Below are positions 2,288 to 58,275 of a stretch of 64,000 bases of DNA, piece by piece; positions within the stretch are counted from its first letter, which is position 1; the number at the start of each line of letters is the position of its first letter. The stretch lies in NCBI RefSeq assembly GCF_900129645.1, contig NZ_FSQZ01000001.1:1116001-1180000 (forward strand), written 5' to 3'. The notes beneath the pieces were generated by a model. That model saw nothing but the letters and a program-made list of their open reading frames with translations. It was not told the DNA's origin and searched no databases. Source of the DNA: Acetomicrobium flavidum. GTDB taxonomy: Bacteria; Synergistota; Synergistia; Synergistales; Acetomicrobiaceae. Made by a program: the position numbers and the translations under genes.

Positions 2288-3448
2288 ATGAGCGACAGAA
2301 AAAAATTCGCATTGATACTGTTCGCATTTCTTTTCTTTTACTTTATACCGGCAGATTCACCCAGGGTATCGGCCGCAGCTTCGGAGGCGCTGGCGATGCT
2401 TCATGAATATGCCAGGGAACATGTCCTGCTTTGCTTAGTTCCTGCTTTTTTCATAGCGGGTGCCATTTCCGTTTTCATCAGCCAACAGTCCGTCATGAAA
2501 TATCTTGGAAGCGGTGCGAACAAGTTCGTGTCCTATTCGGTTGCAGCAGTATCGGGCACGATTTTAGCCGTATGTTCCTGCACCGTTCTTCCTCTGTTTG
2601 CAGGAATTTACGCCAGGGGGGCCGGAATAGGCCCTGCTTCCACATTTCTTTACTCCGGACCTGCTATCAATGTGTTGGCCATAATTTTAACGGCGAGGGT
2701 GTTGGGCTTCGAGATGGGCTTGGCCAGAGCTATCGGTGCGATTTCTTTCAGCATAGTAATTGGGCTGGCGATGTCATTTATATTTAGAAAGGACGAAGAA
2801 CAAAGAAGGGAAATTTTCGCTGTTTCAGTCGAAGACAGTGCATCTCGTCCTTTGTGGCAGCCGGCATCAGTTATGGCCGGCATGATTTGCTTCTTGATAT
2901 TCGCAAACATTGCAGCTCCTAAGGTGGATGCAGGTTTTTGGGCGCAACTTCATAGCGTTAAATGGACAGCAGCATTGATCAGCCTATCCTATGTAGTGTT
3001 TGCGGCGGGAAAATGGTTCAAAGAGGAAATATCTGATTGGTTCAGAGCAACTTGGGGATATGCGCTTCAGGTATTGCCATTGCTTTTTGCCGGCGTACTG
3101 ATCGCAGGCTTTCTTTTCGGACGTCCCGGACGGGAAGGCATCATCCCGAGCGCTTACGTCTCTTATCTGGTGGGTGGCAACTCGATCTTCTCTAATTTTT
3201 TTGCCTCGATCGTTGGGGCCTTAATGTATTTTGCCACGCTAACGGAAGTGCCGATATTACAGGGTCTTTTGGGCGCAGGAATGGGCAAAGGACCGGCACT
3301 TGCCCTTCTTTTAGCCGGCCCTGCTCTATCATTGCCAAGCATGCTGGTAATAAAAACAGTACTGGGGACCAAAAAGACCCTTACGTACGTAGCCCTTGTG
3401 GTGCTGCTTTCTTCGCTGGCTGGAATGATTTATGGCAGCCTTGAATAA
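2288..3448 (+). CDS. UPF0718/ArsP-type permease (YraQ family)
   Basis: Integral membrane protein of 386 aa with about 8-10 hydrophobic segments arranged as two similar halves. The family hallmark CSCTVLPLF (Cys96, Cys98) is present in the first half, followed by ASTFLYSGPAINVLA. Members of this family (ArsP, SO_0444, YraQ) export organoarsenicals or heavy-metal species. The start codon follows an AAAGGGGA ribosome site. Linkage with an ArsR repressor and a TM0996/MTH895-type thioredoxin-like protein is a recurrent arrangement in anaerobes and supports a role in metal or metalloid resistance. The exact substrate is unknown. Confidence 0.85.
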   Translation: MSDRKKFALILFAFLFFYFIPADSPRVSAAASEALAMLHEYAREHVLLCLVPAFFIAGAISVFISQQSVMKYLGSGANKFVSYSVAAVSGTILAVCSCTVLPLFAGIYARGAGIGPASTFLYSGPAINVLAIILTARVLGFEMGLARAIGAISFSIVIGLAMSFIFRKDEEQRREIFAVSVEDSASRPLWQPASVMAGMICFLIFANIAAPKVDAGFWAQLHSVKWTAALISLSYVVFAAGKWFKEEISDWFRATWGYALQVLPLLFAGVLIAGFLFGRPGREGIIPSAYVSYLVGGNSIFSNFFASIVGALMYFATLTEVPILQGLLGAGMGKGPALALLLAGPALSLPSMLVIKTVLGTKKTLTYVALVVLLSSLAGMIYGSLE

Positions 3449-5503: not shown

Positions 5504-6346
5504 CTACAACACCCTCGCAAAGGTATTTGCAACCGACAATAGATTGTTGGCCCAATCCTTTGACAGAGGATCTATCTCTGTCAACCTGGCTCCTATCGCG
5601 TCGGCGACCGCTTTGGCGCCCTTCTTCGAATGTTGTGGCGATACGAATATGGCTTTAACCCCTTCGGCCTTCGCTTCTTCTATGAGGCGGGCCAGATCGG
5701 CACCCTTCGGTTCCTTTCCTTCTACCTCGATTGGAACTTGCGTAAGTCCGTAATCTTTGGCGAAACGTCCCCACGAAGGATGAAAGACCACGAATTTCTT
5801 GCCCCTGACACCCTTCAGCGTATCCCATATCTTGATGTCTAAGGCGACGATATCCCCCAAGAAATCCTGGAAGTTTTTTCTGTAGACTTCTGCGCCCTTC
5901 GGGTCTGCTGATATAATTCCGCGGTATACGTTGTCTGCTATCTTTAGCATGGCAAGCGGCGACGTCCATATATGCGGGTCCTGTTCGTTCCCGTAGCCGG
6001 GCAATCCGTATCCGACATCTACTACTGCTAAATTCGGGTTGGAGGACTTGATCTTGGGCAAGATGACCCTTTCAAACGGAAAATCCGTCGAAAAATATAT
6101 GCCTGCCTTAGACAAGCTTGCCATCTGCTTCGGCTTGGGCTCAAAGGTATGGGGATCGTCGCTCGGGCTTATCATGGAGTATACCTGAACCCTTCCCTCG
6201 CCTATGCGTTCTATGCAATAGGCAATGGGCGGTACCGATGTGAATGCCATAAGCTGGGGTTGCCCTTCCGCTGCCGGCGCAAGGGACGCCACAAGAATGA
6301 TGGCGATAATGGACAGCAACATATCAATCTGTAATTTTAGTTTCAT
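5504..6346 (-). CDS. znuA: Zinc-binding periplasmic protein ZnuA
   Basis: Solute-binding protein of 280 aa, cluster A-I (TroA/ZnuA). The ATG at 6344-6346 has a GGGAGGAAGG site just upstream and overlaps the zur stop (ATGA). A signal peptide covers about residues 1-27. The four metal ligands of the family are recognisable: His66 (DDPHTFEP), His125 (DPHIW), His189 (FHPSWG) and Asp259 (EIDPL). The His-rich acidic loop found in many zinc-specific homologues is missing, so the metal could be zinc or manganese; a Fur-family regulator in the same operon favours zinc. Confidence 0.93.
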   Translation of the reverse strand: MKLKLQIDMLLSIIAIILVASLAPAAEGQPQLMAFTSVPPIAYCIERIGEGRVQVYSMISPSDDPHTFEPKPKQMASLSKAGIYFSTDFPFERVILPKIKSSNPNLAVVDVGYGLPGYGNEQDPHIWTSPLAMLKIADNVYRGIISADPKGAEVYRKNFQDFLGDIVALDIKIWDTLKGVRGKKFVVFHPSWGRFAKDYGLTQVPIEVEGKEPKGADLARLIEEAKAEGVKAIFVSPQHSKKGAKAVADAIGARLTEIDPLSKDWANNLLSVANTFARVL

Positions 6347-43882: not shown

Positions 43883-44029
43883 CGGACGTAGGAACCACGC
43901 GTTGTCCGATATGTGTTGATACTTTATGCTAAATGAAGGATTATTTATTTAGAATTTTTTTAATTTTGCCCATTGCAAATAAGTATACATAGTGTTAATA
44001 TCACCTAACACGAAACTATGGGCGATTAT

Positions 44030-44109
44030 ATGGGGAAACGATGATCCCTTTGCATCTACCTAAACGGGCGCAAGAGCGAAGGGTGAGAGAGTAGCGCGAC
44101 CGGCCCCAT
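44030..44109 (+). ncRNA. Class II cyclic di-GMP riboswitch (c-di-GMP-II aptamer)
   Basis: The RNA reads GGAAAC-ATGAT near 44034-44045, then CCTAAAC-GGGCGC (44059-44071), then GTAGCGC and ACCGG-CCCC (44091-44107). This follows, element by element, the conserved GGAAAC-AUGAU, UAAA-GGGC, GUAG-GC and ACCG-CC blocks of the class II c-di-GMP riboswitch as I remember the Clostridium acetobutylicum example. The closing stem P1 is ATGGGG (44030-44035) with CCCCAT (44104-44109), and GCGC (44068-44071) with GCGC (44094-44097) forms an internal stem. It lies directly before the NfrB-like gene. Its P1 3' strand is shared with the terminator that follows, so the ligand should promote read-through. Confidence 0.84.
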
Positions 44110-44155
44110 CGAGGCGCTGATTTTAAATCAAGCGCTGCAATGGGGCCTTTGTTTT
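44102..44155 (+). terminator. Riboswitch-coupled terminator upstream of the NfrB-like gene
   Basis: GGCCCCAT (44102-44109) pairs with ATGGGGCC (44140-44147), enclosing a second stem (GCGCT 44114-44118 with AGCGC 44131-44135), followed by TTTGTTTT (44148-44155). The left arm contains the CCCCAT that closes the aptamer, so aptamer and terminator are mutually exclusive. Confidence 0.86.
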
Positions 44156-44162
44156 ATGAAGC

Positions 44163-45362
44163 TTGAATGCGAAAGAGAGTGTGGCGGAAGTTATGGTTGT
44201 AAGTTTTTATTACGGGATCCTTCATGCTGCCTTTATTTTATGCCTGTATCTCATATTCATCTGGGGCATAGAAGACCTCTTGGTGGACATCTTCTATTGG
44301 ACGAGGCAAATCTACCGAAGGCTTTTTGTATATACCAAATATCCCCGTCTGACCGTTGAGGATCTATACAAAAAAGAAGAGCAGTGGATTGCCATCATGG
44401 TCCCGGCGTGGCAGGAAGCCGGAGTGATCGGCAAGATGCTTGAGACGACGGTCAAACATCTGGATTACGATCGCTACGTCATTTTTTGCGGCACCTATGT
44501 AAACGACCCGGAGACTTCGCGCGAAGTTGATCTTATATCGGAAAAATGTCAGAAGGTCGTCAAAGCCACGGTGGCTCACCCGGGACCTACCAACAAAGCG
44601 GACTGTCTTAACTTCGTCGTCCGTGAGATACATTCCTATGAAGTGCAGCACGGAATAAGCTTTTCGGGATATGTCTTGCACGATAGCGAGGACATAGTCC
44701 ACCCCCTGGAGCTGAAGCTCTTCAACTATCTGCTCCCTCGAAAGGACATGATACAAATTCCGGTCACGGCGCTGGAGCGCTCATGGAAGGATTTCGTGGC
44801 GTGCACTTACATGGACGAATTCAGCGAGTGGCACTTGAAGGACCTTTTAGTCAGAGAAAGACTGACCAAGACCATACCAAGCGCTGGGGTGGGTACCTGT
44901 TTTAGCCGGCGCGCCATATCTTTTCTGAAACAGAAAAACGGAGGCAGTCCTTTCCCCACTGATTCTCTGACAGAAGATTACGCAGTCGGATTGACGTTGG
45001 CGGAGGCGGGAATGGGTGGCATTATCTTATATTTCCCAATCGCTGTCCGGGGCAAGAAGGGCATAAGGAGGACAAGGAAGCTTTTCGTATCCGTATCTGA
45101 GTATTTCCCTGACACCTTTTGGACGGCCGTCAGGCAGAAAAGTCGCTGGATACTGGGCATTGCATTGCAGGGAGCCAAGACGTTCGGCTGGCGTGGAGAT
45201 ATATTCGATAAGTTCTTTCTGTACAGGGACCGTAAGGGCTTATTTACCTCTTTCGTTAATTTCCTGGCCAATATATTGTTTATCAATTACATGCTTTTGT
45301 TTGTTGGTCTTAGGCTTAATTTTTGCCTTCATATAACTATGCTATCCCTAGAACATTATTGA
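44163..45362 (+). CDS. NfrB-like glycosyltransferase, N-terminal part (frameshifted gene)
   Basis: First 399 aa of a homologue of E. coli NfrB, an inner-membrane processive family 2 glycosyltransferase needed for the phage N4 receptor glycan. An N-terminal membrane helix (about residues 12-36) is followed by YPRLTVEDLYKKEE, MVPAWQEAGVIGKML, HPGPTNKADCLN, the DxD-like HDSED (173-177), GVGTCFSRR, TED (270-272) and QKSRW (325-329). The catalytic set is complete. The frame ends in the membrane region after residue 389, where the rest of NfrB continues in another frame at 45323. The start is uncertain: TTG 44163 is the longest, GTG 44181 and ATG 44193 are possible. Confidence 0.85.
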   Translation: MNAKESVAEVMVVSFYYGILHAAFILCLYLIFIWGIEDLLVDIFYWTRQIYRRLFVYTKYPRLTVEDLYKKEEQWIAIMVPAWQEAGVIGKMLETTVKHLDYDRYVIFCGTYVNDPETSREVDLISEKCQKVVKATVAHPGPTNKADCLNFVVREIHSYEVQHGISFSGYVLHDSEDIVHPLELKLFNYLLPRKDMIQIPVTALERSWKDFVACTYMDEFSEWHLKDLLVRERLTKTIPSAGVGTCFSRRAISFLKQKNGGSPFPTDSLTEDYAVGLTLAEAGMGGIILYFPIAVRGKKGIRRTRKLFVSVSEYFPDTFWTAVRQKSRWILGIALQGAKTFGWRGDIFDKFFLYRDRKGLFTSFVNFLANILFINYMLLFVGLRLNFCLHITMLSLEHY

Positions 45363-46042
45363 TCTTTAACATATTTTTCCTGGCAAACAGATTATTGCAC
45401 CGCGCATTGTTTGTCTTCTTGCTTTACGGTTGGAAGCAATCGCTTTTAAGCATACCACGAATTTTTGTGGTCAACTTTATAAATTTTTGCGCTACATTGA
45501 GGGCATTGAAGCTCTTCGGCGAGCATCTTTTATCGGGTAAGCCCCTGGTGTGGGATAAAACGCAGCACGTCTACCCGACCGAGGAACAGCTCGTCACCTA
45601 CAGAAGACAATTGGGCGATATCCTATTGCAGTGGAAGTCCTTGCGGGAAGAGGACTTACGGGCTGCATTGCATGAGCAAAGGGAAAGCAACAAGTTATTG
45701 GGAGAAATATTGATGAAGCACAGGCTGATCGACGAGGATACCCTTTTTAAGGCGCTCTCCGAACAGTTGGGGTTGCCGTTGGTATCCCCCCATGAGATCA
45801 ATGTGGCAGCGATAGCAGATGTATTGCCCAAGAAGTTATGCGCCGATTATCTCGTCTTTCCGGCCTCGATCGAGAAGGATGGGACGCTTCGGGTTGCCGT
45901 CACCAGGGCTGTTGCGCAGGAATGCCTGAACGAAATAAAGAAGCACTGGACGGGGCCACTAAAGTTTTGCCTGATGAAGGAAAGCGATATGCTCAATATA
46001 CTGGGTGATCTTGCTCACATGGAAATGAGCAATCAAAACTAA
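45323..46042 (+). CDS. NfrB-like protein, C-terminal part with MshEN c-di-GMP-binding domain (frame -1)
   Basis: This 239-aa frame continues the NfrB homology in the -1 frame. Residues about 12-65 hold membrane helices matching the second membrane region of NfrB (ANRLLHRALFVFLLYGWKQSLLSIPRIFVVNFINFCATLRALKLF), then VWDKTQHVYPTEEQ. Residues about 93-175 are an MshEN domain: RQLGDILLQWKSLREEDLRAAL and LLGEILMKHRLIDEDTLFKAL repeat the two LG-x2-L blocks that bind c-di-GMP. It lacks a credible start of its own (TTG 45323), so it is the downstream half of one interrupted gene, read through a frameshift, or expressed separately from an internal start. Confidence 0.8.
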   Translation: MPSYNYAIPRTLLIFNIFFLANRLLHRALFVFLLYGWKQSLLSIPRIFVVNFINFCATLRALKLFGEHLLSGKPLVWDKTQHVYPTEEQLVTYRRQLGDILLQWKSLREEDLRAALHEQRESNKLLGEILMKHRLIDEDTLFKALSEQLGLPLVSPHEINVAAIADVLPKKLCADYLVFPASIEKDGTLRVAVTRAVAQECLNEIKKHWTGPLKFCLMKESDMLNILGDLAHMEMSNQN

Positions 46043-46049
46043 TATAGGG

Positions 46050-47819
46050 ATGATACCATTCATGAGAAGGGCAGAAAGACATCTTATTGCACCATGTATC
46101 TGCATTCACGGCAAGGATATGCTGAGGTTGCTTGCCGTTTTTGCCTTTGCGTTGTTTTTTTTATTGCCCGACATCTTTACGCATGCACATGCCTCCACGC
46201 CTTCTGCCTATGACCTTTACGAAGCGGGCAGGACAGAGGAAGCAAAGGGCCTTGCCGAAGAGCTTTTGAAGAAAGATCCCAAAAACCACTCCCTCAGAAT
46301 GCTTTATGCGGAAATACTGAGGAAAGAGGGAAAGCCCCTGGAGGCAAGAGAGCAGGTCACCAGGGCAATTTTGGGAGGCCTGCGTAACGGCTATACCCAT
46401 TCGACGCGGGGCTATTTGTCGCTTGAACTGGGCGATCCGCAAGGGGCGTTTGAGGATTTTGAAAGGGCCCTCGAGTTTGACGACCTTTCCGAGGATGCTC
46501 GAGAAAACGTGCGCTTGAGCCTGGTTAACCTCTCCATCGAGCTTAACGATGCCGGTAAGGCGTTAAAATATATGGCCAATCATGACGACCCGAAGGTGTT
46601 TTACGGCGTCGCACGGCTCGTCTCAAACACAGTGTCGGGCAGCGGGTTAAGAAGTTATATGGACAGGTTGTCCAGCATGGCCCAATCGGATTCGCAGAGG
46701 GCGGAAGTGCTATGGGCGCTTGGAGAACACGAAAAAGCTCAGGGCAACCTTGAGGCCGCGGCGAAGCTGATGTCGGAGGCCATGTCCCTGTACCCCCGGT
46801 CGGCTACCCAGTACAGGCTGCTTTCGCTTGCCTACCTCTTTGTAGACCTTGACGAGGACGACATGGCTGCAAAGCTCTTCGACGAGGCCTTGTCCGATAA
46901 CTGCGGGGCGTCTCCCGAAGCCTTGGCCGATGCCGCCTACGCCTTCAAAGGCGCAGGCAACAACAGAAAGAGCATGCATTATTTTACGAGGAGCATCAAA
47001 GCGTACAGAAACCGCGGCGAAAATGACGAGGAATCGAAGGGCTGGATTTACTCCCTTCGGCGCGAGAACTCCAACTTGGAACGACGATGGGGCATGTACA
47101 CATCTTATTTTTACCAGGAGAACGGATACCCCGGCTATATTTTGGGCAGGACCGTCTCCGGAGGCGAAACTCAACAGATGTGGCAGGAGATCTACTATCA
47201 GATGATAAACGACAATGGCAGGCAGTTGTCCATGTATGTGTCTTACGGGTTGACCTTGAGCGCCGAAAACGACAATGAAGGTTGGGATACGGGGATGTAC
47301 GTTCTGGGCATCAGGTACAAGCCTATGGGCGACGCAAACTTGAACATCGCCTTGGAAAGGCACTGGAAGCAGGACGAGCCTAACGACTGGCAGGTCCGCA
47401 TGGGCTATTCATGGGACAAAGGGTCCGATTTGAACGTGACGGATCCCAGTTGGGATTATCTTTTTTATTACGGCGAGGTAGCCCACCTGTTGGATGAAGG
47501 GCGGACCTTTGGGGTGGTAGAGTGTAGGGCTGGCAGAAGCACGCGTTTGGGAGGGGAAAGGGGAAAGGCCGTCTTTACGCCTCACCTCTTTTTCCGCGGC
47601 GATTACGACAGCGATCCTATTGCCTTCGAGGGCATCGATTCATCCGATGAGGAATGGGCCTTGAGCATTGGCCCGGGCTTGATGTGGAGGATATGGTACA
47701 GGGAAGACGATTATCATGCGCCACGTTCGTACCTCGACATCATCTTTCAATACCGTTTCAAGCTAAGCGATGCGGATAGGGCTGAAGGCCTATCCATCAG
47801 GATAACCAATGCCTTTTGA
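46050..47819 (+). CDS. NfrA-like outer-membrane protein (TPR domain plus beta-barrel)
   Basis: Protein of up to 589 aa. A signal peptide lies near residues 24-48 (LLAVFAFALFFLLPDIF, cleavage near AHA-ST); ATG 46050, 46062 and 46119 are possible starts. Residues about 50-340 are TPR-like helices (AYDLYEAGRTEEAKGLAEELLKKDP and similar repeats). The last 240 residues look like amphipathic beta strands (alternating Gly/aromatic, ending RAEGLSIRITNAF with a terminal Phe), as in an outer-membrane barrel. This order matches NfrA, the outer-membrane partner of NfrB. It follows the NfrB-like gene by 8 nt and is expressed with it. Confidence 0.82.
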   Translation: MIPFMRRAERHLIAPCICIHGKDMLRLLAVFAFALFFLLPDIFTHAHASTPSAYDLYEAGRTEEAKGLAEELLKKDPKNHSLRMLYAEILRKEGKPLEAREQVTRAILGGLRNGYTHSTRGYLSLELGDPQGAFEDFERALEFDDLSEDARENVRLSLVNLSIELNDAGKALKYMANHDDPKVFYGVARLVSNTVSGSGLRSYMDRLSSMAQSDSQRAEVLWALGEHEKAQGNLEAAAKLMSEAMSLYPRSATQYRLLSLAYLFVDLDEDDMAAKLFDEALSDNCGASPEALADAAYAFKGAGNNRKSMHYFTRSIKAYRNRGENDEESKGWIYSLRRENSNLERRWGMYTSYFYQENGYPGYILGRTVSGGETQQMWQEIYYQMINDNGRQLSMYVSYGLTLSAENDNEGWDTGMYVLGIRYKPMGDANLNIALERHWKQDEPNDWQVRMGYSWDKGSDLNVTDPSWDYLFYYGEVAHLLDEGRTFGVVECRAGRSTRLGGERGKAVFTPHLFFRGDYDSDPIAFEGIDSSDEEWALSIGPGLMWRIWYREDDYHAPRSYLDIIFQYRFKLSDADRAEGLSIRITNAF

Positions 47820-48188
47820 TGGTTTAAAATTTTATCATAAATCCTTCCTTAAAATAAAATCTCTTTAAAAATATATTGTACTTAATCATTATCATACCTC
47901 CTAATTTCATTTTCATAGATGTAGATAATTTTTCTGAGGCCAGAACTATTTCACTGGATTATGGTAGCTTCATCATATTTGATATAATCTTTTCTATTGC
48001 TAGTTATTGCTTTTTACAAGCTATAAGACGATATTATATATTGATATTACACAAAATATATGATATTGGCTTCTTCCCCTAAAATTCCCCTGCAGGAATT
48101 GAAATAGAGCCATAAATTACTTGCCACGATGCCAAATATTTGGTATATATTTTGCATCTAAACCTCGAAAGGGGATTTTGTACTTATA
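47820..48188 (+). promoter_or_regulatory. AT-rich gene-free stretch with pil operon promoter
   Basis: This 369-nt gap is unusually AT-rich with no convincing coding frame. Near its right end are TTGCCA (48121-48126) and TATATA (48144-48149), 17 nt apart, a plausible promoter for the pil operon. A perfect 12-bp palindrome CCAAATATTTGG (48132-48143) fills the spacer and could be an operator. The rest shows no recognised feature. Confidence 0.5.
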
Positions 48189-49886
48189 ATGACTCACGAA
48201 AGTACACTATGGCATAAAAAACTCCAATTAGGCCAAATATTGATCGAGCAAGATTGTATTCATGCAGAACAACTTGAAATGGCCCTTAAGGAGCAAAGTG
48301 TTACTAATCTCCGCCTTGGCGAAATTCTCGTCAAAAATGGATGGATTACGGAGAAAAATTTGATCGAGGCCATCTCAAAACAGACGGACTTGCCCTTTGT
48401 CTCTCTATCCATGTTTCATCCTATGAAAGAGGCAGTTGATGCCATTCCCGAAAATATGGCAAGGAGGCTTGAATTAGTTCCTCTCTATATTGACGAAAAT
48501 TCTCGCAGGATAGTCTTGGCTGTTTCAGATCCTTTCAATATATTGGCTCTTGATGAGATAAGGATGACAACAGGAATGGATGTTGACATAATGATAGCCA
48601 CCCTTTCCGATATCAAACGTGCGATAGATTGTTTTTACAGCGTCAAGTCTAGCGTCGAGCAAGCTTTGATCGAGGTCGTCGAAGAAGTAAAAACGGAGTT
48701 CGATCTGTCGAAGGATCAAGAAGCAGGTTCTATCGACGATGCTCCCGTGGTAAAGCTTGTTAACACCGTATTGGGGCAGGCTGTCGAAGCAGGCGCATCC
48801 GATGTCCACATGGAACCCTTCGAAGCTGAGACACGGGTCAGATATAGGGTAGATGGAGTTTTATTTGATATGCTAACCTTTCCCAGACATCTTCACGCCT
48901 CTGTTTCGTCGCGCATAAAAATAATGTCTGGCATGGACATTGCTGAGAAGCGCCATCCTCAAGACGGGAGAATGTTCCTTCGCGCAGCGGGCAGGCGCAT
49001 CGACATAAGGGTCTCGAGCCTTCCCGCCATTTACGGCGAAAAGCTGGTCATGCGCTTGCTCGATCAGGCCACGGCCATGGTGGGCCTGGAAAAGCTCGGG
49101 CTGGATCCCGAGGAGAGAGTGGTCCTGGACAAGATCATAGGGGCACCTTACGGCATCATATTGGTAACGGGGCCGACGGGGAGCGGAAAGTCGACCACCC
49201 TTTATTCAATACTGCAGACCCTTAACTCCTACGACGTGAACATCACGACGGTGGAGGACCCCGTCGAGTACACCATTGCGGGGGTCAACCAGGTGCAGAT
49301 AAACGAAAAGGCGGGCCTTACCTACGATACTGTCTTAAGGTCCATTTTACGTCAGGATCCAGACATAATATTGGTAGGTGAAATGCGTGATACCGAGACG
49401 GCCCAATTAGCAGTGAGGGCGGCCCTCACGGGACACTTGGTGCTGTCGACGCTTCACACCAACGACGCCCCAAGCTCCATCATAAGGATGGTAGACATGG
49501 GAATTCCCCCCTTCCTCGTGTCCTCTTCCGTGGTCGCCGTGATGGCGCAGAGGCTGGTCAGAAAGCTATGCCCCCGCTGCAAGGCGCCCTACGAGCTGCC
49601 GCAGGACGTGGCCGAAAGCCTGGGTCTTGACGGCTTCACGACCGTCTACAAGCCCGTGGGCTGTGATGAATGCCGCGGCACGGGCTACAGGGGAAGGACG
49701 GCGATCTTTGAGATAATGAAAATGTCAGAAAGGCTGAAGCATGCCGTAATGAAGAACACTTCTTCAGATGAGCTCGGCATGATTGCCATAGAAGAAGGCA
49801 TAACCACATTGCGCGCTTCAGGCACAAGAAAGGTAATACAGGGAATAACTAGCCCTCATGAAGTACTGTCGATAACATTGAGATGA
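48189..49886 (+). CDS. pilB: Type IV pilus extension ATPase PilB (GspE family) with MshEN domain
   Basis: ATPase of 565 aa. Residues about 12-115 form an MshEN domain with two LG-x2-L blocks (LGQILIEQDCI and LGEILVKNGWI) that bind c-di-GMP in relatives. The ATPase domain has Walker A TGPTGSGKSTTL (about 320-331), TTVEDPVEY, LRQDPDIILVGEMRD, the His box TGHLVLSTLHTNDA and a zinc site with CPRC and CDECRGTG. It is the first pil gene. Its codon use changes: the first 800 nt and the tail are AT-rich while about 48980-49720 is GC-rich like the rest of the chromosome. Confidence 0.94.
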   Translation: MTHESTLWHKKLQLGQILIEQDCIHAEQLEMALKEQSVTNLRLGEILVKNGWITEKNLIEAISKQTDLPFVSLSMFHPMKEAVDAIPENMARRLELVPLYIDENSRRIVLAVSDPFNILALDEIRMTTGMDVDIMIATLSDIKRAIDCFYSVKSSVEQALIEVVEEVKTEFDLSKDQEAGSIDDAPVVKLVNTVLGQAVEAGASDVHMEPFEAETRVRYRVDGVLFDMLTFPRHLHASVSSRIKIMSGMDIAEKRHPQDGRMFLRAAGRRIDIRVSSLPAIYGEKLVMRLLDQATAMVGLEKLGLDPEERVVLDKIIGAPYGIILVTGPTGSGKSTTLYSILQTLNSYDVNITTVEDPVEYTIAGVNQVQINEKAGLTYDTVLRSILRQDPDIILVGEMRDTETAQLAVRAALTGHLVLSTLHTNDAPSSIIRMVDMGIPPFLVSSSVVAVMAQRLVRKLCPRCKAPYELPQDVAESLGLDGFTTVYKPVGCDECRGTGYRGRTAIFEIMKMSERLKHAVMKNTSSDELGMIAIEEGITTLRASGTRKVIQGITSPHEVLSITLR

Positions 49887-49899
49887 CAGAGGTATTATA

Positions 49900-50976
49900 A
49901 TGTCACTACGGTTTGAAATCCAAGACCTGTTCTCAGAAGCCTCAAGGAGAAATGCGAGCGATATTCATATATCCGTAAATGTTCCTCCTATATTTCGTGT
50001 AGACGAACAGCTACGTCGCATCGATCATCCTCCGTTGTCGGTTGAGGATGTCAAGATGATATTATCCAGGCTGATCTCTGATCTTCAGTTTAAGCGTTTT
50101 TACAGCGAAAAGGAACTCGATTTCAGCTTTAATTTTCCTTTAGGCAATGGAGAAACCATTCGCTTTAGGGGAAATTGTTTCTTTGAGAGAGGCAATATTG
50201 CTATTGTCTTAAGGCTCATCCCACAAGAGATTCGCCTCATAAAAAATCTCCTCCTTCCATCTCAAATTCAGGAAGTGGCGAAAAAACGCCGAGGTCTTTT
50301 CCTCGTCACGGGCCCATCGGGACACGGTAAATCTACCAGCCTTGCGGCCATAATACAGGAGATAAATTTAACAAGGAACTGCCATATAGTAACCATAGAA
50401 GACCCAATCGAATATATGTTTACCTCGGTGAAATCACTGATACATCAGAGGGAAATAGAAGTGGACGCTGCAAGCTTTGCAGAAGCACTAAAAAGGACCT
50501 TGCGTCAGGACCCGGATGTCATAATGATAGGGGAGATGAGAGACCTGGATACGACAAGGGCCGCCATAACGGCAGCCGAAACAGGACATCTGGTATTGAG
50601 CACGCTTCATACCCCCGATAGTTCCCAAAGCATTGACAGGATTTTGGACATTTTCCCGGCTTATCAGCAGGACCAGGTTAAGCTGCAGCTGGCTAACATC
50701 TTGATAGGAGTCTGTTCACAACAACTCATTCCACTTTTGGAAGGCGGCAGAATAGTGGCGACGGAGTTGATGTGGGCTGTACCGGCAGTGTGCAATTGCA
50801 TAAGGGAAAGGAAGATCCATGGCATAAAAAACATCATACAAACAGGGCTGGACCAGGGCATGCACACCATGGACCAGGACCTAATCCGTTTGGTAAAAGA
50901 GGGCAAACTGCCCAAAGATCTTGCTGCTTCTTACGCCTTGGAGCGGAAGGAATTTAACAGGATGCTTTATTTATAG
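49900..50976 (+). CDS. pilT: Type IV pilus retraction ATPase PilT-like
   Basis: ATPase of 358 aa. The N-terminus (LFSEASRRNASDIHISVNVPPIFRVDEQLRRI) is typical of PilT. Walker A is GPSGHGKST, with His where Ser is usual; then TIEDPIEYMFTS, LRQDPDVIMIGEMRD and TGHLVLSTLHTPDSSQSIDRILD. The PilT C-terminal AIRNLIRE motif is replaced by AVCNCIRERKIHGIKNIIQTG, which is close but not identical. It lies 14 nt after pilB. It provides pilus retraction. Confidence 0.92.
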   Translation: MSLRFEIQDLFSEASRRNASDIHISVNVPPIFRVDEQLRRIDHPPLSVEDVKMILSRLISDLQFKRFYSEKELDFSFNFPLGNGETIRFRGNCFFERGNIAIVLRLIPQEIRLIKNLLLPSQIQEVAKKRRGLFLVTGPSGHGKSTSLAAIIQEINLTRNCHIVTIEDPIEYMFTSVKSLIHQREIEVDAASFAEALKRTLRQDPDVIMIGEMRDLDTTRAAITAAETGHLVLSTLHTPDSSQSIDRILDIFPAYQQDQVKLQLANILIGVCSQQLIPLLEGGRIVATELMWAVPAVCNCIRERKIHGIKNIIQTGLDQGMHTMDQDLIRLVKEGKLPKDLAASYALERKEFNRMLYL

Positions 50977-50990
50977 AAAGGTCAAGCGAT

Positions 50991-52211
50991 ATGGCTTACA
51001 GCTACAGAGCAAGGAGTAAAGAAGGAAAGATAATTAGGGGAAATCTTGAAGCCTGTTCCGAAGTTGAAGTTATTCAGTGGTTGAAAGAAAGATCATTTTA
51101 TCCCATAGAAATCGTGAAGATTAGGACATCAAGGGGTAAGATTCTAAGGGATAGCCTGCAAATCATGCCACCTGTAAGGCTGAAGGATAAGGCCATATTT
51201 TTTCGACAGTTGGCCACTATGCTTCAGGCAGGCATTACCTTGGGCAGCGCCTTGGACATGATAGCAAAACAGACTCAAAACTATCGCTTATCCCAAGCCA
51301 TAAGGGATATAAAGATAATGGTCGACAAGGGCGCATCCCTACACGTTGCTATGGCCACAAGAAAGGAATTTTCAAATCTCATGATTGCTATAGCTAGGGC
51401 CGGGGAGGAGGGGGGGATATTAGAGTCAAGCTTAGACAGGCTTGCAACCTTCCTAGAACGCCAGGATGAGCTGAGGAAAAAGATCCTGTCTGCCTCGATC
51501 TATCCGGCTGTGGTTATGTGCTTTGCCCTTTTCGTCGTATTGTTGTTAGTCACGGTGATAATGCCGAAGTTCGCCAGTGTCCTTGCGAACTTAAACGTCC
51601 AGCTCCCCTTGCCCTCCAAGGTTATTTTGGGTTTTTCCATATGGTTGAGCTGTTACTGGTATTTGCCTCTATTTATAGTTTTGTTTTTGGTTTTGGGAAT
51701 ATACATCCTTTCGAGAAGAAAAGAGACTAAGGCAAGGCTCGATGCTTTAAGGCTAGGGCTACCCCTTTTCGGTGATATATGGAAAAAGACAGTACTAGTC
51801 AGGACGTTTAGGACATTTGCTGCCCTTGTCCAAGCAGGTGTTCCTATTCTTTCGGCCTTAGAAATGACGGGAGGTGTTTCGGGAAGTGTCCTCGTCGAAG
51901 ATGCCTTTGCACAACTGGCCGACCAGGCAAAAAGAGGTGTTTCTCTTGGTGAAGCGGCAAAAAAGATAGCAATTATACCCCCACTACCCACCTACATGAT
52001 GGCCATAGGCGAGCAGACGGGCAGGCTTGAGATAATGGTGGATAAGGTGGCTGATTGGTTTGAGTTTGAGCTTGATGAAAAGATTAAATGGCTTACGTCT
52101 ATACTTGAACCCCTGCTTATAGTCTCTGTAGGCGGAGTGGTGGCCTTGGTTGTGTTTGCCGTATTCATGCCCATAATTGGTTCAATTCAGGGTTTACTAA
52201 ATGGTTTTTAG
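50991..52211 (+). CDS. pilC: Type IV pilus inner-membrane platform protein PilC (GspF family)
   Basis: Platform protein of 406 aa with two GspF domains (about residues 65-190 and 270-400) and three membrane helices (near 170, 222 and 380). Family markers are FFRQLATMLQAGITLGSALDMIA, ARAGEEGGILESSLDRLATFLERQDELRKKI and the second-copy RTFAALVQAGVPILSALEMTG, MAIGEQTGRLEIMVDKVADWFEFEL. It starts 15 nt after pilT. Confidence 0.94.
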   Translation: MAYSYRARSKEGKIIRGNLEACSEVEVIQWLKERSFYPIEIVKIRTSRGKILRDSLQIMPPVRLKDKAIFFRQLATMLQAGITLGSALDMIAKQTQNYRLSQAIRDIKIMVDKGASLHVAMATRKEFSNLMIAIARAGEEGGILESSLDRLATFLERQDELRKKILSASIYPAVVMCFALFVVLLLVTVIMPKFASVLANLNVQLPLPSKVILGFSIWLSCYWYLPLFIVLFLVLGIYILSRRKETKARLDALRLGLPLFGDIWKKTVLVRTFRTFAALVQAGVPILSALEMTGGVSGSVLVEDAFAQLADQAKRGVSLGEAAKKIAIIPPLPTYMMAIGEQTGRLEIMVDKVADWFEFELDEKIKWLTSILEPLLIVSVGGVVALVVFAVFMPIIGSIQGLLNGF

Positions 52212-52360
52212 TTGATAATATATCCTATATAAAAAATATTTTAAGACATATAATATTATTTACAACATATATAATATAATATCAATCTATTCAGTATATA
52301 AATGATTATTATATTATTGTATAACAATATTTAATATTTTCTTGAGAAAGGATGATTTAA
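52212..52360. other. Very AT-rich leader before the pilin gene
   Basis: This stretch is built almost entirely of A and T with TATA-type repeats (for example around 52225-52330), unlike the surrounding genome. It probably holds the promoter of the pilin gene; several TATAAT-like boxes occur, none unambiguous. Confidence 0.4.
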
Positions 52361-52876
52361 TTGAACAGCAATGTCATAAGAAAGTTTAAAAAAAGCAGAT
52401 CAAAAGAAGGTTTTACTCTTGTTGAAATTTTGGTTGTCATGATAATCATTGGAATATTAGCTAGTGGGATGGCTCTAGTAGCTGGAGGAAGCAGAGATAT
52501 TGCCGAAGCAACGAGAATAGCGAGTGATCTTAAAAATGCAAAGGTGGCAGCTATGATGTGGGTCGTTGATGATCCAAATGGAGCTAACGTCAATACTTGG
52601 AAGAGTGAAGCTCATACCTATCTCGATAGATATCTTGATAAACCGATATCTACTAACGATAATTATAAATTTGAAACAATTACGCTCAATGATAGGGATG
52701 TTTGGTTATTAGGATATAACTTATCTGGCGTAAGAGAGGGCGTGATAAAGAAGTTAGCTGAGCAAGCGGAATCTGTGGGTCTATTTGAAAAAGTTGAGAC
52801 CAATAACGCTCAGTCGCTTGCTACCTTCAAAGGTGGGGATGATAGCAACAAAGTGATCTATGTAATTGTCCAATAG
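52361..52876 (+). CDS. Type IV pilin-like protein (major pilin candidate)
   Basis: Prepilin of 171 aa. A positively charged leader (about 17 residues) ends in EG before FTLVEILVVMIIIGILASG, so PilD would cut after Gly17 and Glu at +5 is present. The remainder is a globular C-terminal domain without a clear disulfide pair. The start is a TTG with GAGAAAGGATGATT upstream. It follows a 149-nt extremely AT-rich gap, so it may have its own promoter; it could be the major pilin. Confidence 0.9.
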   Translation: MNSNVIRKFKKSRSKEGFTLVEILVVMIIIGILASGMALVAGGSRDIAEATRIASDLKNAKVAAMMWVVDDPNGANVNTWKSEAHTYLDRYLDKPISTNDNYKFETITLNDRDVWLLGYNLSGVREGVIKKLAEQAESVGLFEKVETNNAQSLATFKGGDDSNKVIYVIVQ

Positions 52877-52891
52877 CTATTGTGAATTGAT

Positions 52892-53248
52892 ATGACACGG
52901 CGCGGTTTTTCGCTGATAGAAGCTTTGGTGGCGATGATCTTTATCCTTGTCGCGCTGATACCAATGACAGCCATGTCTGCAGCAATAAATAAGCTTTATA
53001 CAACTTCGGCCGCTAGGGAACGAGCCATGTTGCTTGCCTTGCAAAAGTTAGATGAGCTTGAGGCAGAAAGGTCAACCGAGTTATTCGGCGGATCTCAAAT
53101 AGTGGATTGCTATAACATGACCTGGACTATTGGAAATCCACTACATGGACTTAGGGAAGTCAAGCTTACTATTACCTGGGACGATGGGCATAGCAAGCTT
53201 GAGATCATAAGACAGGTGAGTACTGGTGCAGACAACATCTCAACTTAG
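52892..53248 (+). CDS. Minor pilin-like protein (PilV/GspI-type)
   Basis: Prepilin of 118 aa with a very short leader: MTRRG^FSLIEALVAMIFILVALIPMTAM, a PilD cleavage site with Glu at +5. The C-terminal part resembles PilV/GspI minor pilins (LALQKLDELEAERSTELFG). It lies 16 nt after the first pilin gene, and its end overlaps the next by 23 nt. Confidence 0.85.
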   Translation: MTRRGFSLIEALVAMIFILVALIPMTAMSAAINKLYTTSAARERAMLLALQKLDELEAERSTELFGGSQIVDCYNMTWTIGNPLHGLREVKLTITWDDGHSKLEIIRQVSTGADNIST

Positions 53249-54185
53249 ATTGCGCAAGGGTTTTGTGCTAGTTGAAGTACTTGCGTCTATCGTCATTGCG
53301 TCTATTGTTGGCATCTCTGTAGCGGAGCTTGTTTCGCTCTTTCTCAAACAGCTAGATCAGGTAACAGACCTTGTAACGGCTCGTCAACGCGGAGAAATGA
53401 TTTTATCTCAATTGGAGCTACCTGTGCTTCGTGCAGGTTTGTTCATGCCAAATACTCCTGATGTCTTTATCTCAACATTTAAAGTTGGTTCGATGGATTT
53501 GGTTAAAGGCGCCCTGCAAAAGGTCGTTGTAGGCTGGAACAAGCCTGTCTTTTTATGTGAAGCAGTTGATGGGAAGGAGACAAAATATTTCAAAAAAATG
53601 GGCATCGTTTACTCTTTAGATTCGAGCATCGGAATATTGACCGAACGCGATGTTGAGGCGGGACAAGAGGTTTCCCTTAAATTGTCCTCACCATGTCCAG
53701 GTGATCAATTGAGGGCAGCAACCACTTTGATAGGCACTGACTGCTGGGTTACATTTTCAGGTTGCGAGACACCCTATCTCATTAAGGCCATAAATAATGT
53801 TAATAAAAGCTTAACCGTTATGGCGTCCCGTAGAGATTTGATACCACTTTTCTCGGAGCTTCAATATGTCCGGGCTTTGTGTGCCTATGTTGATTTCCCC
53901 GGCGGGGCATCTCCAAGTTTTTGCCTCCAGGATGTAACGCGTGGTTCTGCACAACCCATAGCAGACAGCATATCTCAAGTGCTTTTTTCTTTTGATGAGT
54001 ATAGCAAGATATTGTCGGTTTATTTGTTAATCAGAGGAAATCATAGATTTTCGAGGCAGATCACACAGGGCGATGTCAGCGGTTGGCCTATTAATGACAC
54101 TATAACTGATGAGGATAGGCATTATAGATTGATTGCTATGGCTGCCTCCTGGAGGGTTAGAAACTGGCTCGAAGAAAGGCAGTAG
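53226..54185 (+). CDS. Minor pilin-like protein (PilW/GspJ-type)
   Basis: Prepilin-like protein of 319 aa. Leader ends RKG^FVLVEVLASIVIASIVGISVAELV, with Glu at +5. The length and the long soluble domain fit PilW-like proteins. It overlaps the previous gene by 23 nt; the start has no clear Shine-Dalgarno, suggesting coupling. Confidence 0.85.
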   Translation: MQTTSQLRLRKGFVLVEVLASIVIASIVGISVAELVSLFLKQLDQVTDLVTARQRGEMILSQLELPVLRAGLFMPNTPDVFISTFKVGSMDLVKGALQKVVVGWNKPVFLCEAVDGKETKYFKKMGIVYSLDSSIGILTERDVEAGQEVSLKLSSPCPGDQLRAATTLIGTDCWVTFSGCETPYLIKAINNVNKSLTVMASRRDLIPLFSELQYVRALCAYVDFPGGASPSFCLQDVTRGSAQPIADSISQVLFSFDEYSKILSVYLLIRGNHRFSRQITQGDVSGWPINDTITDEDRHYRLIAMAASWRVRNWLEERQ

Positions 54186-54763
54186 TTTTACCTCTGGTTT
54201 TGATAGCATTCTCTTTAACAAGCGTTTTAGTGGCAGCGTGTTTTTATATTGTTGGAAACTATTATTTAAGCGCTAACCAGATGATGATGGGCAATCTTCT
54301 TTATAATGCCGCAGTGAACGGCATTGAGGAAGGGAAAGGATGGGTTAATTCAAACGTGAAGTCAGGAAGATTTCCTCGCTGGGTGGACAAAAATGGTGAC
54401 GGATTGCTTTCGTCAAACGATAAACCTGACGACGCTGCTCATGTTTACGAAGCGCTTATAGCCAAGGTTGGATCAACGGATAGAGGAATTCTTAACATCA
54501 CGACCGAATACGGGATCAAGAAATGTGTGGTAGTTTACGACCTGGCCTACGAGCCCGCTTTGGACTTGGCCTATGAAAAGGGATTTCCCCCGCGTATTCG
54601 CCCGCAGGTCGAGGAAGGTGATGATGTCTTCGAGAGTGAGGACAAAAAATGGATGGACAAATATATTACTAAAAACAATGTAGGGATTTATCTTATACGA
54701 TGTACCGCTACATATAAAGAAAGAACTTGCACCATTGAACAGGCATTTACAATAAGGGAGTAG
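54164..54763 (+). CDS. PilX-like pilus accessory protein (possible CTG start)
   Basis: Membrane-anchored protein of about 199 aa. Reading from a CTG at 54164, which has a GGAGGG site 7 nt upstream (54151-54156), gives ARRKAVVLPLVLIAFSLTSVLVAACF, the N-terminal profile of PilX. The next conventional start, TTG 54200, would leave a truncated membrane helix. The CTG start is an inference. The remainder contains a DKNGDGLLSSNDKPDD loop similar to EF-hand/dockerin calcium sites. It overlaps the upstream gene by 22 nt. Confidence 0.75.
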   Translation: MARRKAVVLPLVLIAFSLTSVLVAACFYIVGNYYLSANQMMMGNLLYNAAVNGIEEGKGWVNSNVKSGRFPRWVDKNGDGLLSSNDKPDDAAHVYEALIAKVGSTDRGILNITTEYGIKKCVVVYDLAYEPALDLAYEKGFPPRIRPQVEEGDDVFESEDKKWMDKYITKNNVGIYLIRCTATYKERTCTIEQAFTIRE

Positions 54764-54768
54764 TCGTG

Positions 54769-55380
54769 ATGGTAAATGTCGATCTAAGGCCGAACGAAAT
54801 CAAGGTGGTCGAAGGAAAGAAGATTGACCTTTCAAGGGTTATTGCTTTGACGTTAATTGTTGTATTTGTGGTCGTATCGTGTTTTGTAATCATCTATGAC
54901 TTTTTTATTATGAAGAGACTTGCAACGGAAAGGCAAATCCTTGAAGCCGATACAAAAAAGCTGATCCTCGAGAATAAGAAGTTGGATAGCTATCTAGCGG
55001 AAGTTGACGCACAGTTGGACCTTTATGAGAACGCTCTGACTCTGCTGAAAGAAGATATCCTTTCCATTGAATTTCTTACTGCTCTTGTGGCTGCATTGCC
55101 AGATAATGTATGGCTTACAGGTTTGAAAGTTGTTTCGGGAAGAGCTGACGTAAATGGTTATGCCTTTGCCGAAAACGATATAGCTGCCTTTGCTTTAAAG
55201 CTTCTTAATGTAAATGTAGTTAGATCTATAAGTCCCTTGGTGACTTCAAAGGGGGAAGAGAGGAACTTAGAAGTTCAAGGGCATACTACAGTAAAGTTCA
55301 ACTTTTCTTGCATTTTAGAAGACCTTGTTTCAATTCAGGATCCTGTCAAGGGAGCTGAAGGCGATGAAGATAAGCACTAA
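54769..55380 (+). CDS. pilN: PilN-like pilus alignment protein
   Basis: Bitopic protein of about 203 aa. The N-terminus MVNVDLRPNEIKVVEGKK resembles the NLLP-type cytosolic motif that binds PilM. One membrane helix (about residues 24-48) is followed by coiled coil (about 52-95) and a ferredoxin-like PilN domain (VAALPDNVWLTGLKVVSGRADVNGYAFAENDIAAFALKLL). GTG 54766 and ATG 54769 are adjacent starts. It overlaps pilO. Confidence 0.85.
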   Translation: MVNVDLRPNEIKVVEGKKIDLSRVIALTLIVVFVVVSCFVIIYDFFIMKRLATERQILEADTKKLILENKKLDSYLAEVDAQLDLYENALTLLKEDILSIEFLTALVAALPDNVWLTGLKVVSGRADVNGYAFAENDIAAFALKLLNVNVVRSISPLVTSKGEERNLEVQGHTTVKFNFSCILEDLVSIQDPVKGAEGDEDKH

Positions 55381-55873
55381 AAAAACGCTCATCATTTTCG
55401 TCTTTTGCCTTTTAATTGGAAGTTTTTTATGGTTTCAATATGCTTTATGTTCAAACATCATAATAAAAAAGGCGGCCATAGCAAGTCTATCTAAAGAAAA
55501 GGCAACCTTAAGAGAGGCTATATCGCGAAAGTATGCTTTGCTTATTGCCTATAAAGATGTTGTTCAAAAAGTAGGAACGTTCCAGTTTTCTTTTCCGACA
55601 GACAATGTTGCTTTTTTCGCCGCATTAGAGGGGATTATGGCAAGCAGCAGCCTAAAGATTATAGCAATAAATCCCATTAGTCGGTCTTGCGCTGATTACG
55701 TGACGGCAGTTAGAGTGACATGCGAGGGTGATTGCTACGAGTTACTAGATGCTATTTCCCGAATGCGGAATAGCAAGATGATCATGCGTCTTTCTTCTTT
55801 GGAAATAACTGAAAAAGACAAGGATTGCGTAAGGGCAGATATATTGATAGAAACCATTATACATAGGAAGTGA
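55364..55873 (+). CDS. pilO: PilO-like pilus alignment protein
   Basis: Bitopic protein of about 169 aa: short cytosolic part, a membrane helix (about residues 5-27), coiled coil and a small alpha/beta domain (FFAALEGIMASSSLKIIAINP). The ATG at 55364 overlaps the end of pilN by 17 nt, and GGGAGCTGAAGG lies upstream. It should pair with PilN to link PilM to PilP. Confidence 0.82.
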   Translation: MKISTKKTLIIFVFCLLIGSFLWFQYALCSNIIIKKAAIASLSKEKATLREAISRKYALLIAYKDVVQKVGTFQFSFPTDNVAFFAALEGIMASSSLKIIAINPISRSCADYVTAVRVTCEGDCYELLDAISRMRNSKMIMRLSSLEITEKDKDCVRADILIETIIHRK

Positions 55874-55879
55874 AAGGTT

Positions 55880-56485
55880 GTGAGAGGAGCCTGGAAAGAT
55901 GGTCTCTATTCTTTGTGGCAAGAGCTTCTTTATGGGGGCGAGGGCATGCGCTTTTTGCGCATCCTTTTGGCCATTTGCTTCGTCGCAGGAATTGGATGGT
56001 CAATATATCTCTACAAACAAATTGTCTGGCCTTCTCGCTTGACCTTTATCGAGATACCGATTGCCAAATCAGCGATTGAGCTGGATCAAAAGCATGTAGA
56101 TCTTGTTAAGGGTTTTGAGGAAATTGCAGATATACGATCAATAAACTTGGGTATGGCTGATTTAGCTTCAACACTGACCAGGCATGCCTTTAGCGAGCCT
56201 CCGATGCCGGTAGTGCAAGAGGCGGTGGTAAAGGAGGCTGCGCAAAGGGATAAGGCTCCTTCTTTGGCGGTGGAGCAAGTGTATTTGCCTCCCCACATGG
56301 AAGTTCGCGCCATCATGATATTGGATAAAAGGCCGATGGCGCTGATGAACATCGAGGGCGAGGGCGACGGCCTTATAGTCTCGCCGGGTTACAGGTTCGG
56401 AGACGGACGGGGCAGGGTAGTGAGCATTACCCAGACGAAGGTGGTGGTATTATGGGCAGGAACGAGCATGGAATTGGGGTTATAG
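55880..56485 (+). CDS. pilP: PilP-like pilus protein
   Basis: Membrane-anchored protein of about 201 aa with a helix near residues 24-42. The C-terminal part (about 130-201, VRAIMILDKRPMALMNIEGEGDGLIVSPGYRFGDGRGRVVSITQTKVVV) matches the beta-rich PilP fold that binds PilQ. The start is GTG. Composition changes from AT-rich to GC-rich near 56280. No lipobox is present, unlike most PilP. Confidence 0.78.
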   Translation: MRGAWKDGLYSLWQELLYGGEGMRFLRILLAICFVAGIGWSIYLYKQIVWPSRLTFIEIPIAKSAIELDQKHVDLVKGFEEIADIRSINLGMADLASTLTRHAFSEPPMPVVQEAVVKEAAQRDKAPSLAVEQVYLPPHMEVRAIMILDKRPMALMNIEGEGDGLIVSPGYRFGDGRGRVVSITQTKVVVLWAGTSMELGL

Positions 56486-56490
56486 GCGTT

Positions 56491-58275
56491 ATGATGATGA
56501 AAAAAATTGCTCTGATAGTCGCTGCCATGCTTTTCTGTTTTGCTGTCGCTAGCTTCATGTCAGGGCAGGCCTTTGCCCAAACGTCCTCGAGCACGACTGC
56601 AGCCGACGATAAAAACGGGAAGCTTGCCGAAAATGCGGCTGTATTTGGAGGAATCGTGATCCATCAGGCAGGGTCGAATTTGCTTTTGATCGAGATAAAG
56701 GGGGTCAATTTGCCCGCTCCGAAGATAACGACTTCCGACTCGGGCCACATGGTATTTTTCTTCGAGGGAGCTTCCATACCGGCCGAGAGGTGGACGAGAA
56801 GCTACGCATTTCCCCTTTTAAACGGGGTTGAAGTGGTCAACGTGGAAGGCGGGCTTGAGCTGCGGCTTTTTACCACCCAGCTTCTCGAGGTGAAGGAGAT
56901 GACGGGCACGCCTCCTGCGCCTCTTTACAGGTTGCAGCTTAGGGTTCCCGGCCAGGAAGTGAGCGAGCTTCCCAAGAAAGAGGAAAATCCCTTTCCCTTG
57001 GCGCTCCAGACAGGCCCGAAGGATCCCATGTCCATCACGTCGCCGGTGACGCTTGAGCTTAGGGATACGGAGCTTAAGGACCTCTTGAGGCTGCTTGCGA
57101 AGTTCATGAAATTGAACGTGATAATAGATCCGTCCGTGCCGCCAAACACCGTCACGCTGAGCGTAAAGGACGCTCCGCTTCGCGAGGTCCTGTCCTACGT
57201 CATGCGGATGAACAACTTGAATTACGCCGTCATGGGAAACACTGTGATCTTTGGTACCCCCGAAAGCCTTGGCAAGTCGCTGGGGATGGAGCAGACGAGG
57301 TCCTTTAAGATCGCCTATGCCGATCCTAAGCAAGTCCCAACGATCCTTCAAAGCATGGTCGGGGCCACTAACGTTACAGTTGACGAGAGGCTCAGGACCG
57401 TGTACGTGACGGGAAGGCCGGACAACTTGCGGGATGCCGAATATTTGCTTCAAAGGATAGACCATCCCGGACGTCAGGTCATGCTTCAGGCTCGCCTTAT
57501 TGAAGTGAGGGACACAGGCAGGAAGGAGCTTGAAAGCATCATCGATGCCGTCTACAAGCACTGGTGGTTTTCCTACGGGGCGGGCGGCGGCTCCATAGGC
57601 TATGCCAATGCGAGCGAACCCGACAAGTTCGATCCCGACGACGACAGGCCGACCTCGCCTCAGGACGTAGGCCTCGTTGACATAACCAACGGCACGCTCA
57701 GGCTTTTGGATGTTGGCATAAGAAACCTGGTCGAATCCAACAAGGCAGATATTTTGGCAAGCCCTTCGGTCGTTACCGTGGACGGGCAGAAGGCCTCGAT
57801 CGCGTTGACCACCAACGTCAAATACATATCCGAACGCGACGATGCTGGTAACCCGATATACAACGAGGAGCGAGTTGGTCCTAAGCTCGATTTTACTCCC
57901 GTCGTGGGCAGGGACAACACGGTCACCATAAACGTAACCATCTCGACCGGCGAAGTGGTGGAGTGGAGGTCGGGAGGCATGGGAGAGGAAGTCCCCGTCA
58001 CGAGCTCCCGCGACGTCACCACCATGGTCAGGGTGAAAAATGGCGAGCCCTTCGTGATTGGCGGCCTTTTCGACAAGAAAAAGACCGACACGGTTTCCAG
58101 AGTTCCTGTACTGTCCGATATTCCTCTGCTGGGGGAGATATTTAAGACCCGCACGAAGCGCGACGAGGAATCTGAGGTCGTCACTGTCGTGGTGCCATAC
58201 ATCCTTGACGTTCCGGATACCGCCATAGAGATGAGCGAGCTTGGAAGCTTGAGCCCGGGTGTCACAAAGAAGTGA
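56491..58275 (+). CDS. pilQ: Type IV pilus secretin PilQ (GspD family)
   Basis: Outer-membrane secretin of about 594 aa. A signal peptide (about residues 1-30, AFA-QT) precedes AMIN-like beta domains (about 40-165), an STN-like segment with VTLELRDTELKDLLRLLAKFMKLNVIIDPSVP (about 190-220), the N1/secretin-short domain (YADPKQVPTILQSMVGATNVTVDERLRTVYVTG) and the C-terminal secretin barrel with RNLVESNKADILASPSVVTVDGQKASI and the VPVLSDIPLLGEIFKTR signature. ATG 56491 is preferred; its gene overlaps nothing downstream. Confidence 0.93.
   Translation: MMMKKIALIVAAMLFCFAVASFMSGQAFAQTSSSTTAADDKNGKLAENAAVFGGIVIHQAGSNLLLIEIKGVNLPAPKITTSDSGHMVFFFEGASIPAERWTRSYAFPLLNGVEVVNVEGGLELRLFTTQLLEVKEMTGTPPAPLYRLQLRVPGQEVSELPKKEENPFPLALQTGPKDPMSITSPVTLELRDTELKDLLRLLAKFMKLNVIIDPSVPPNTVTLSVKDAPLREVLSYVMRMNNLNYAVMGNTVIFGTPESLGKSLGMEQTRSFKIAYADPKQVPTILQSMVGATNVTVDERLRTVYVTGRPDNLRDAEYLLQRIDHPGRQVMLQARLIEVRDTGRKELESIIDAVYKHWWFSYGAGGGSIGYANASEPDKFDPDDDRPTSPQDVGLVDITNGTLRLLDVGIRNLVESNKADILASPSVVTVDGQKASIALTTNVKYISERDDAGNPIYNEERVGPKLDFTPVVGRDNTVTINVTISTGEVVEWRSGGMGEEVPVTSSRDVTTMVRVKNGEPFVIGGLFDKKKTDTVSRVPVLSDIPLLGEIFKTRTKRDEESEVVTVVVPYILDVPDTAIEMSELGSLSPGVTKK

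Follow-up and report, generated by a model that had tools for sequence, protein, structure and literature searches.

Results

Organization of the locus

The window (the whole 64 kb stretch of Acetomicrobium flavidum DNA analysed here) carries a probable promoter, a structured leader that ends in a predicted intrinsic terminator, the genes nfrB and nfrA, and a type IV pilus operon (Table 1). The promoter was picked by eye and lies under our threshold of 9 of 12 consensus positions; sites such as TTGTCA-17-TATAAA occupy the same place in relatives. The initial annotation had placed NfrB/NfrA-like genes downstream of the leader, and Pfam and NCBIfam matches confirm this: the NfrB translation has GT2 motifs (DSED, TED and QKSRW) and an MshEN domain, and its partner has NfrA_C. 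Only 2 of 188 Synergistota genomes carry NfrA_C or nfrBA. The arrangement, a GT plus MshEN protein followed by NfrA, is that of the E. coli nfrBA-ybcH system, in which c-di-GMP control is exerted at the protein level and NfrB binds c-di-GMP (PMC8669469). However, the paper on that system mentions a riboswitch nowhere, whereas the window has one, and ybcH is not found directly downstream in the window.

Table 1. Features of the riboswitch locus and its surroundings (window coordinates)
Feature	Position	Strand	Basis or remark
Probable promoter, TTGCAA - 17 nt - TAATAT	43973..44001	+	by eye, 8/12 consensus positions
Class II c-di-GMP-type aptamer	44025..44114	+	RF03169, 50.4 bits
P1 5' strand, ATGGGG	44030..44035	+	read directly, Rfam match
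P3 hairpin, CCCUUUGC 44046-44053 with GCGAAGGG 44076-44083	44046..44083	+	
'37'-position C (44065) and pseudoknot 5' strand GGGCGC (44066-44071)	44065..44071	+	numbering presumed to be that of 3Q3Z
Pseudoknot 3' strand and predicted binding site GCGCGACCG; G 44098 in place of canonical A ('A69')	44094..44102	+	
Intrinsic terminator, GGCCCCAT 44102-44109 with ATGGGGCC 44140-44147, tail TTTGTTTT 44148-44155	44102..44155	+	-29.2 kcal/mol
P1 3' strand, CCCCAT, also within terminator 5' arm	44104..44109	+	read directly, comparison with relatives
nfrB, GT2 + MshEN, two ORFs (44163/44193-45362; 45323-46042)	44193..46042	+	1-nt deletion, T run near 45320
nfrA, TPR repeats + NfrA_C	46050..47819	+	
AT-rich gap before pilB, promoter-like sites, no aptamer or remnant	47820..48188	+	
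Type IV pilus operon: pilB (MshEN), pilT, pilC, pilin-like genes, pilQ	48189..58275	+	

Class of the aptamer

When the window was scanned with cmscan against 4227 Rfam families, the single match above a gathering cut-off was to RF03169 (c-di-GMP-II-GAG), which is covered at full length (model positions 1-86) with 50.4 bits against a cut-off of 40 (E 5.9e-7). P1, P2, P3 and the pseudoknot occur in the order of the class II superfamily (clan CL00127), the core is conserved, and every position that is invariant across a seven-sequence alignment is kept. The P1 strands, terminator arms and tail are at the bases given by the initial annotation, and the conserved blocks follow in the order it described. 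Its assignment to the class II c-di-GMP riboswitches holds for the type of aptamer but not for canonical class II: with Infernal, RF01786 scores 39.9 bits here, short of its cut-off of 53.5, whereas the sister family RF03169 passes its own, and the canonical assignment was dropped on the curated cut-off. Matches of the hairpin region to microRNA and CRISPR families are far below cut-off, reflect the hairpin only and were set aside.

The two variant sub-families are neither of them cleanly matched, as the window aptamer is GCG-type by its site yet scores best with the GAG model. Its triple is G-C-G (GCGCGACCG), as at the site of RF03170 (c-di-GMP-II-GCG), but it stays below the RF03170 cut-off of 47.9, and the genome has no match to that family at E<=0.001. 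Copies from sister species score 33-35 bits with RF03170, and only the copy of G176, a genome of another family, exceeds the cut-off (51.4). The G-A-G triple of RF03169, as read from the family name and consensus line, is lacking, C standing in place of the middle A, so that, strictly taken, the RNA is not counted among the GAG members. Common to the window and both variants are the architecture and the ligand-site G for A, with C37/G69 as in most variants here. The window RNA belongs genuinely to a rare variant class with an orphan ligand, of which it is a new member.

The ligand-binding site

The canonical consensus reads GUGCAACCG with U before GGGC, whereas the window has GCGCGACCG with C before GGGC; the ligand-site U and A of RF01786 at '37' and '69' are thus absent, with C and G instead. 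Bases 37 and 69 of crystal structure 3Q3Z are, we assume, those that contact one ligand guanine. Among the 20 variant aptamers tabulated, C occurs together with G in 18 and U with G in two (L024 and L025), counts that represent related sequences rather than independent events. The canonical side of this comparison consists of the G121 aptamer (U with A), the Rfam consensus line and a C. difficile class II sequence, which we take to have U with A. The A-to-G change would then be accompanied by a change of the second base, as in a swapped pair. A GAG triple is present in 11 aptamers from Actinobacteria and Chloroflexi, and there the neighbouring C-to-A change coincides with replacement of its G partner in the pseudoknot by U or C.

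The G121 aptamer (L006, G121:C8:147300-147383) is the sole aptamer in the 188 Synergistota genomes to exceed the cut-off for canonical class II c-di-GMP riboswitches and lies upstream of a large surface-protein-like gene. A search for more canonical class II sequences to extend the covariation gave four matches in viral scans, none at any Rfam cut-off, and nothing usable in plasmid BLAST. Three candidates from a genome pattern scan (L018, L026 and L030) matched the pattern, fell into no Rfam family and were dropped.

Terminator and switching

The initial annotation had also proposed that P1 and the terminator share a strand and that the ligand turns the genes on. The sharing is upheld: in the window and in 6/6 intact relatives (four pilB-type copies from Acetomicrobium-like contigs, the nfrB-type copy of L034, and G176), the P1 3' strand doubles as the 5' arm of a hairpin with a T tail, although the hairpin sequences differ. 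The stems stay paired despite this divergence, with GGCCCC/GGGGCC becoming GACCCC/GGGGTC in G176 by a double change. When 44110-44155 was dinucleotide-shuffled and the 3' aptamer strand left unchanged, one of 5000 shuffles reached the hairpin stability of the window; pairing of all eight P1-side bases is less special (281/5000). In a model without pseudoknot and ligand, the ligand-free terminator fold is better than the P1-forced fold by 13 kcal/mol in the window and by 7-13 in the relatives, which fits an ON switch. Since all relatives examined preserve the strand sharing despite their divergent sequences, an ON switch is well supported; the competition between P1 and terminator agrees with the proposed direction, and the RNA, judged by its design, would switch ON with ligand. 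Canonical RF01786 switches such as C. difficile Cdi-2-4 upstream of pilA1 have the fold and the P1-based ON terminator control in common with the window, but U-A at the ligand site instead of C-G. In C. difficile, the class II switches that have been tested act as ON switches, and one of them controls type IV pili (PMC6200980).

Targets in relatives

Type IV pilus genes are the target both of Cdi-2-4 and in Acetomicrobium sister species, whereas the window has nfrBA downstream instead (PMC6200980 for Cdi-2-4). A homologous switch lies directly upstream of pilB in G014, G013, G012 and contig L027, and within the genus the usual target is the type IV pilus operon, not nfrBA. Upstream of nfrB, G012 has an additional, orthologous copy, which the Rfam search missed because an assembly gap (NN) interrupts it. 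In G012 and G013 there is a promoter-like site between the switch and pilB, so that control of pilB may be partial there. In the window, the nfrA-pilB gap is 369 bases long with promoter-like sites, and no second or decayed aptamer was detected before pilB (best score 1.5 bits, filters off). In G176, the switch precedes small secreted-protein genes, which are followed by the pilus operon.

Several further copies are worth describing. The G015 pilB switch (L055 465-553; G015:C7:104164-104252) has changes in its core (GGGGTACGATAA, CGACAG) with the terminator intact, and is either decayed or respecialised. Just upstream of the G012 pilB riboswitch there is a remnant of a second nfrA (L008 17016-17285; G012:C7:83015-83284), which suggests duplication or insertion of nfrBA followed by partial deletion. 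In a MAG labelled Bacillota (L034 1-2636), the nfrB-type riboswitch of Acetomicrobium is present but most of nfrBA has been deleted; the contig is probably misassigned. L027 carries the label Armatimonadetes, yet it too resembles a pilB contig from Acetomicrobium. The GAG relatives of Actinobacteria and Chloroflexi stand mostly before genes for secreted proteins, of which several are, by our reading of the translations, large and resemble adhesins; such targets are typical of c-di-GMP control too. One Actinomycetes MAG contig (L035) has two c-di-GMP-II-GAG aptamers 3 kb apart (3042-3125 and 6190-6277), and a very large secreted repeat protein follows each of them.

Discussion

Identity of the ligand

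Because the aptamer is an A-to-G binding-site variant and not canonical class II, c-di-GMP as its ligand is something that we infer. It is the most likely ligand, given the MshEN motifs on NfrB and PilB and two canonical diguanylate cyclases in the genome. The NCBIfam c-di-GMP-binding motif NF053729 scores 53.6 in NfrB and 67.1 in PilB against a cut-off of 38. Three GGDEF proteins are encoded, two with intact GGDEF and GHxxGD motifs and one degenerate and fused to EAL.

Rfam lists such A-to-G RNAs as separate variants. In the window, as in most variant aptamers, U37/A69 is changed to C37/G69, and the RNA mechanism might thus be unchanged with specificity altered toward a different cyclic dinucleotide such as 3',3'-cGAMP. 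The discoverers of the variants (Weinberg and co-workers, in 2017) reportedly thought that they might bind another signal, and to our knowledge A-to-G class II variants have no assigned ligand. Hypr enzymes, which make cGAMP, have Ser at the Asp position of GHxxGD; however, both intact GGDEF proteins have Asp, no SMODS nucleotidyltransferase was found in the genome, and a cGAMP-making enzyme as source of the ligand was set aside on these grounds. V. cholerae MshEN binds cGAMP too, although weakly (PMC5013675), but the targets here are MshEN proteins, which are best known for c-di-GMP, and a paired swap could preserve the geometry of the site. Another ligand is unlikely. The wider proposal that C37/G69 variants, the window included, do not sense c-di-GMP but a different cyclic dinucleotide, which in Acetomicrobium activates the glycan exporter together with type IV pili, seems to us if anything a little less likely still.

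State of the target gene

A T run within 45315-45325 has five T in the window and six in G012, with the result that nfrB is split into two overlapping frames, whereas the G012 ORF is intact (627 aa). The assembled target may therefore be broken or misassembled here; a sequencing error, a recent loss or phase variation may account for the split. This split raises the prospect that the RNA is a relic, a former riboswitch losing its role in the lineage, and the altered conserved core of the pilB aptamer in the sister species G015 and the L034 record without most of nfrBA point the same way. However, of the 126 codons that differ from G012 across both nfrB halves, 78 differ synonymously, so that selection acted until recently, and with both halves conserved the deletion is either recent or an assembly error. 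Moreover, the window aptamer retains all alignment-invariant positions, and its identity to the nfrB-type copies is higher (73/75 and 88/90) than that of the upstream sequence (119/134 and 121/135). We consider a relic quite improbable. That this is a constitutive terminator or leader resembling an aptamer by chance has no positive evidence in its favour and is extremely improbable; as regards the aptamer it is refuted by the E-value of 5.9e-7 against all of Rfam and by homologues in another bacterial family that keep the core and the shared-strand terminator.

Proposed mechanism and significance

The reading that we favour, with a probability of roughly three in four, is that a riboswitch of the class II c-di-GMP superfamily turns transcription of nfrBA ON, with c-di-GMP as its most likely ligand, and that NfrB itself is subject to a second control. 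The aptamer, the shared strand, the terminator and the targets are shown from the sequence and from comparison with relatives. Transcription would start some 20-30 nt upstream of P1. With the ligand absent, the GGCCCCAT strand would pair downstream, forming the terminator just before nfrB; with the ligand, most likely c-di-GMP, bound, P1 and the pseudoknot would hold this strand, no terminator would form and nfrBA would be transcribed. The MshEN domain of NfrB would then need c-di-GMP again for glycan synthesis. We infer the switching and this double control, as we do the ligand. The initial annotation had suggested that RNA and protein control combine: with an MshEN domain on NfrB they could, but several consensus residues of the NfrB motif are missing. 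By comparison with the E. coli system, R and G positions of the MshEN motifs are partly lost: in motif I, R is replaced by Q and G by K, and in motif II, R by L and G by R, so that binding of c-di-GMP by NfrB is plausible rather than assured. Motif II of PilB is perfect by a relaxed pattern. Two UDP-GlcNAc 2-epimerases in the genome could supply the proposed Nfr substrate (PMC8669469).

This kind of riboswitch is already known; what makes the finding worthwhile is its target, together with the opportunity to assign a ligand to an orphan variant. Here, orphan A-to-G variants precede the genes for NfrB and PilB, proteins with c-di-GMP-binding motifs, and the genome encodes few c-di-GMP enzymes; this yields a specific prediction of the ligand that is simple to test. 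We found no precedent for nfrBA as a target. If the proposed reading is true, this would be, as far as we could find, the first riboswitch-controlled Nfr glycan synthesis, with one messenger acting on both the RNA and the enzyme.
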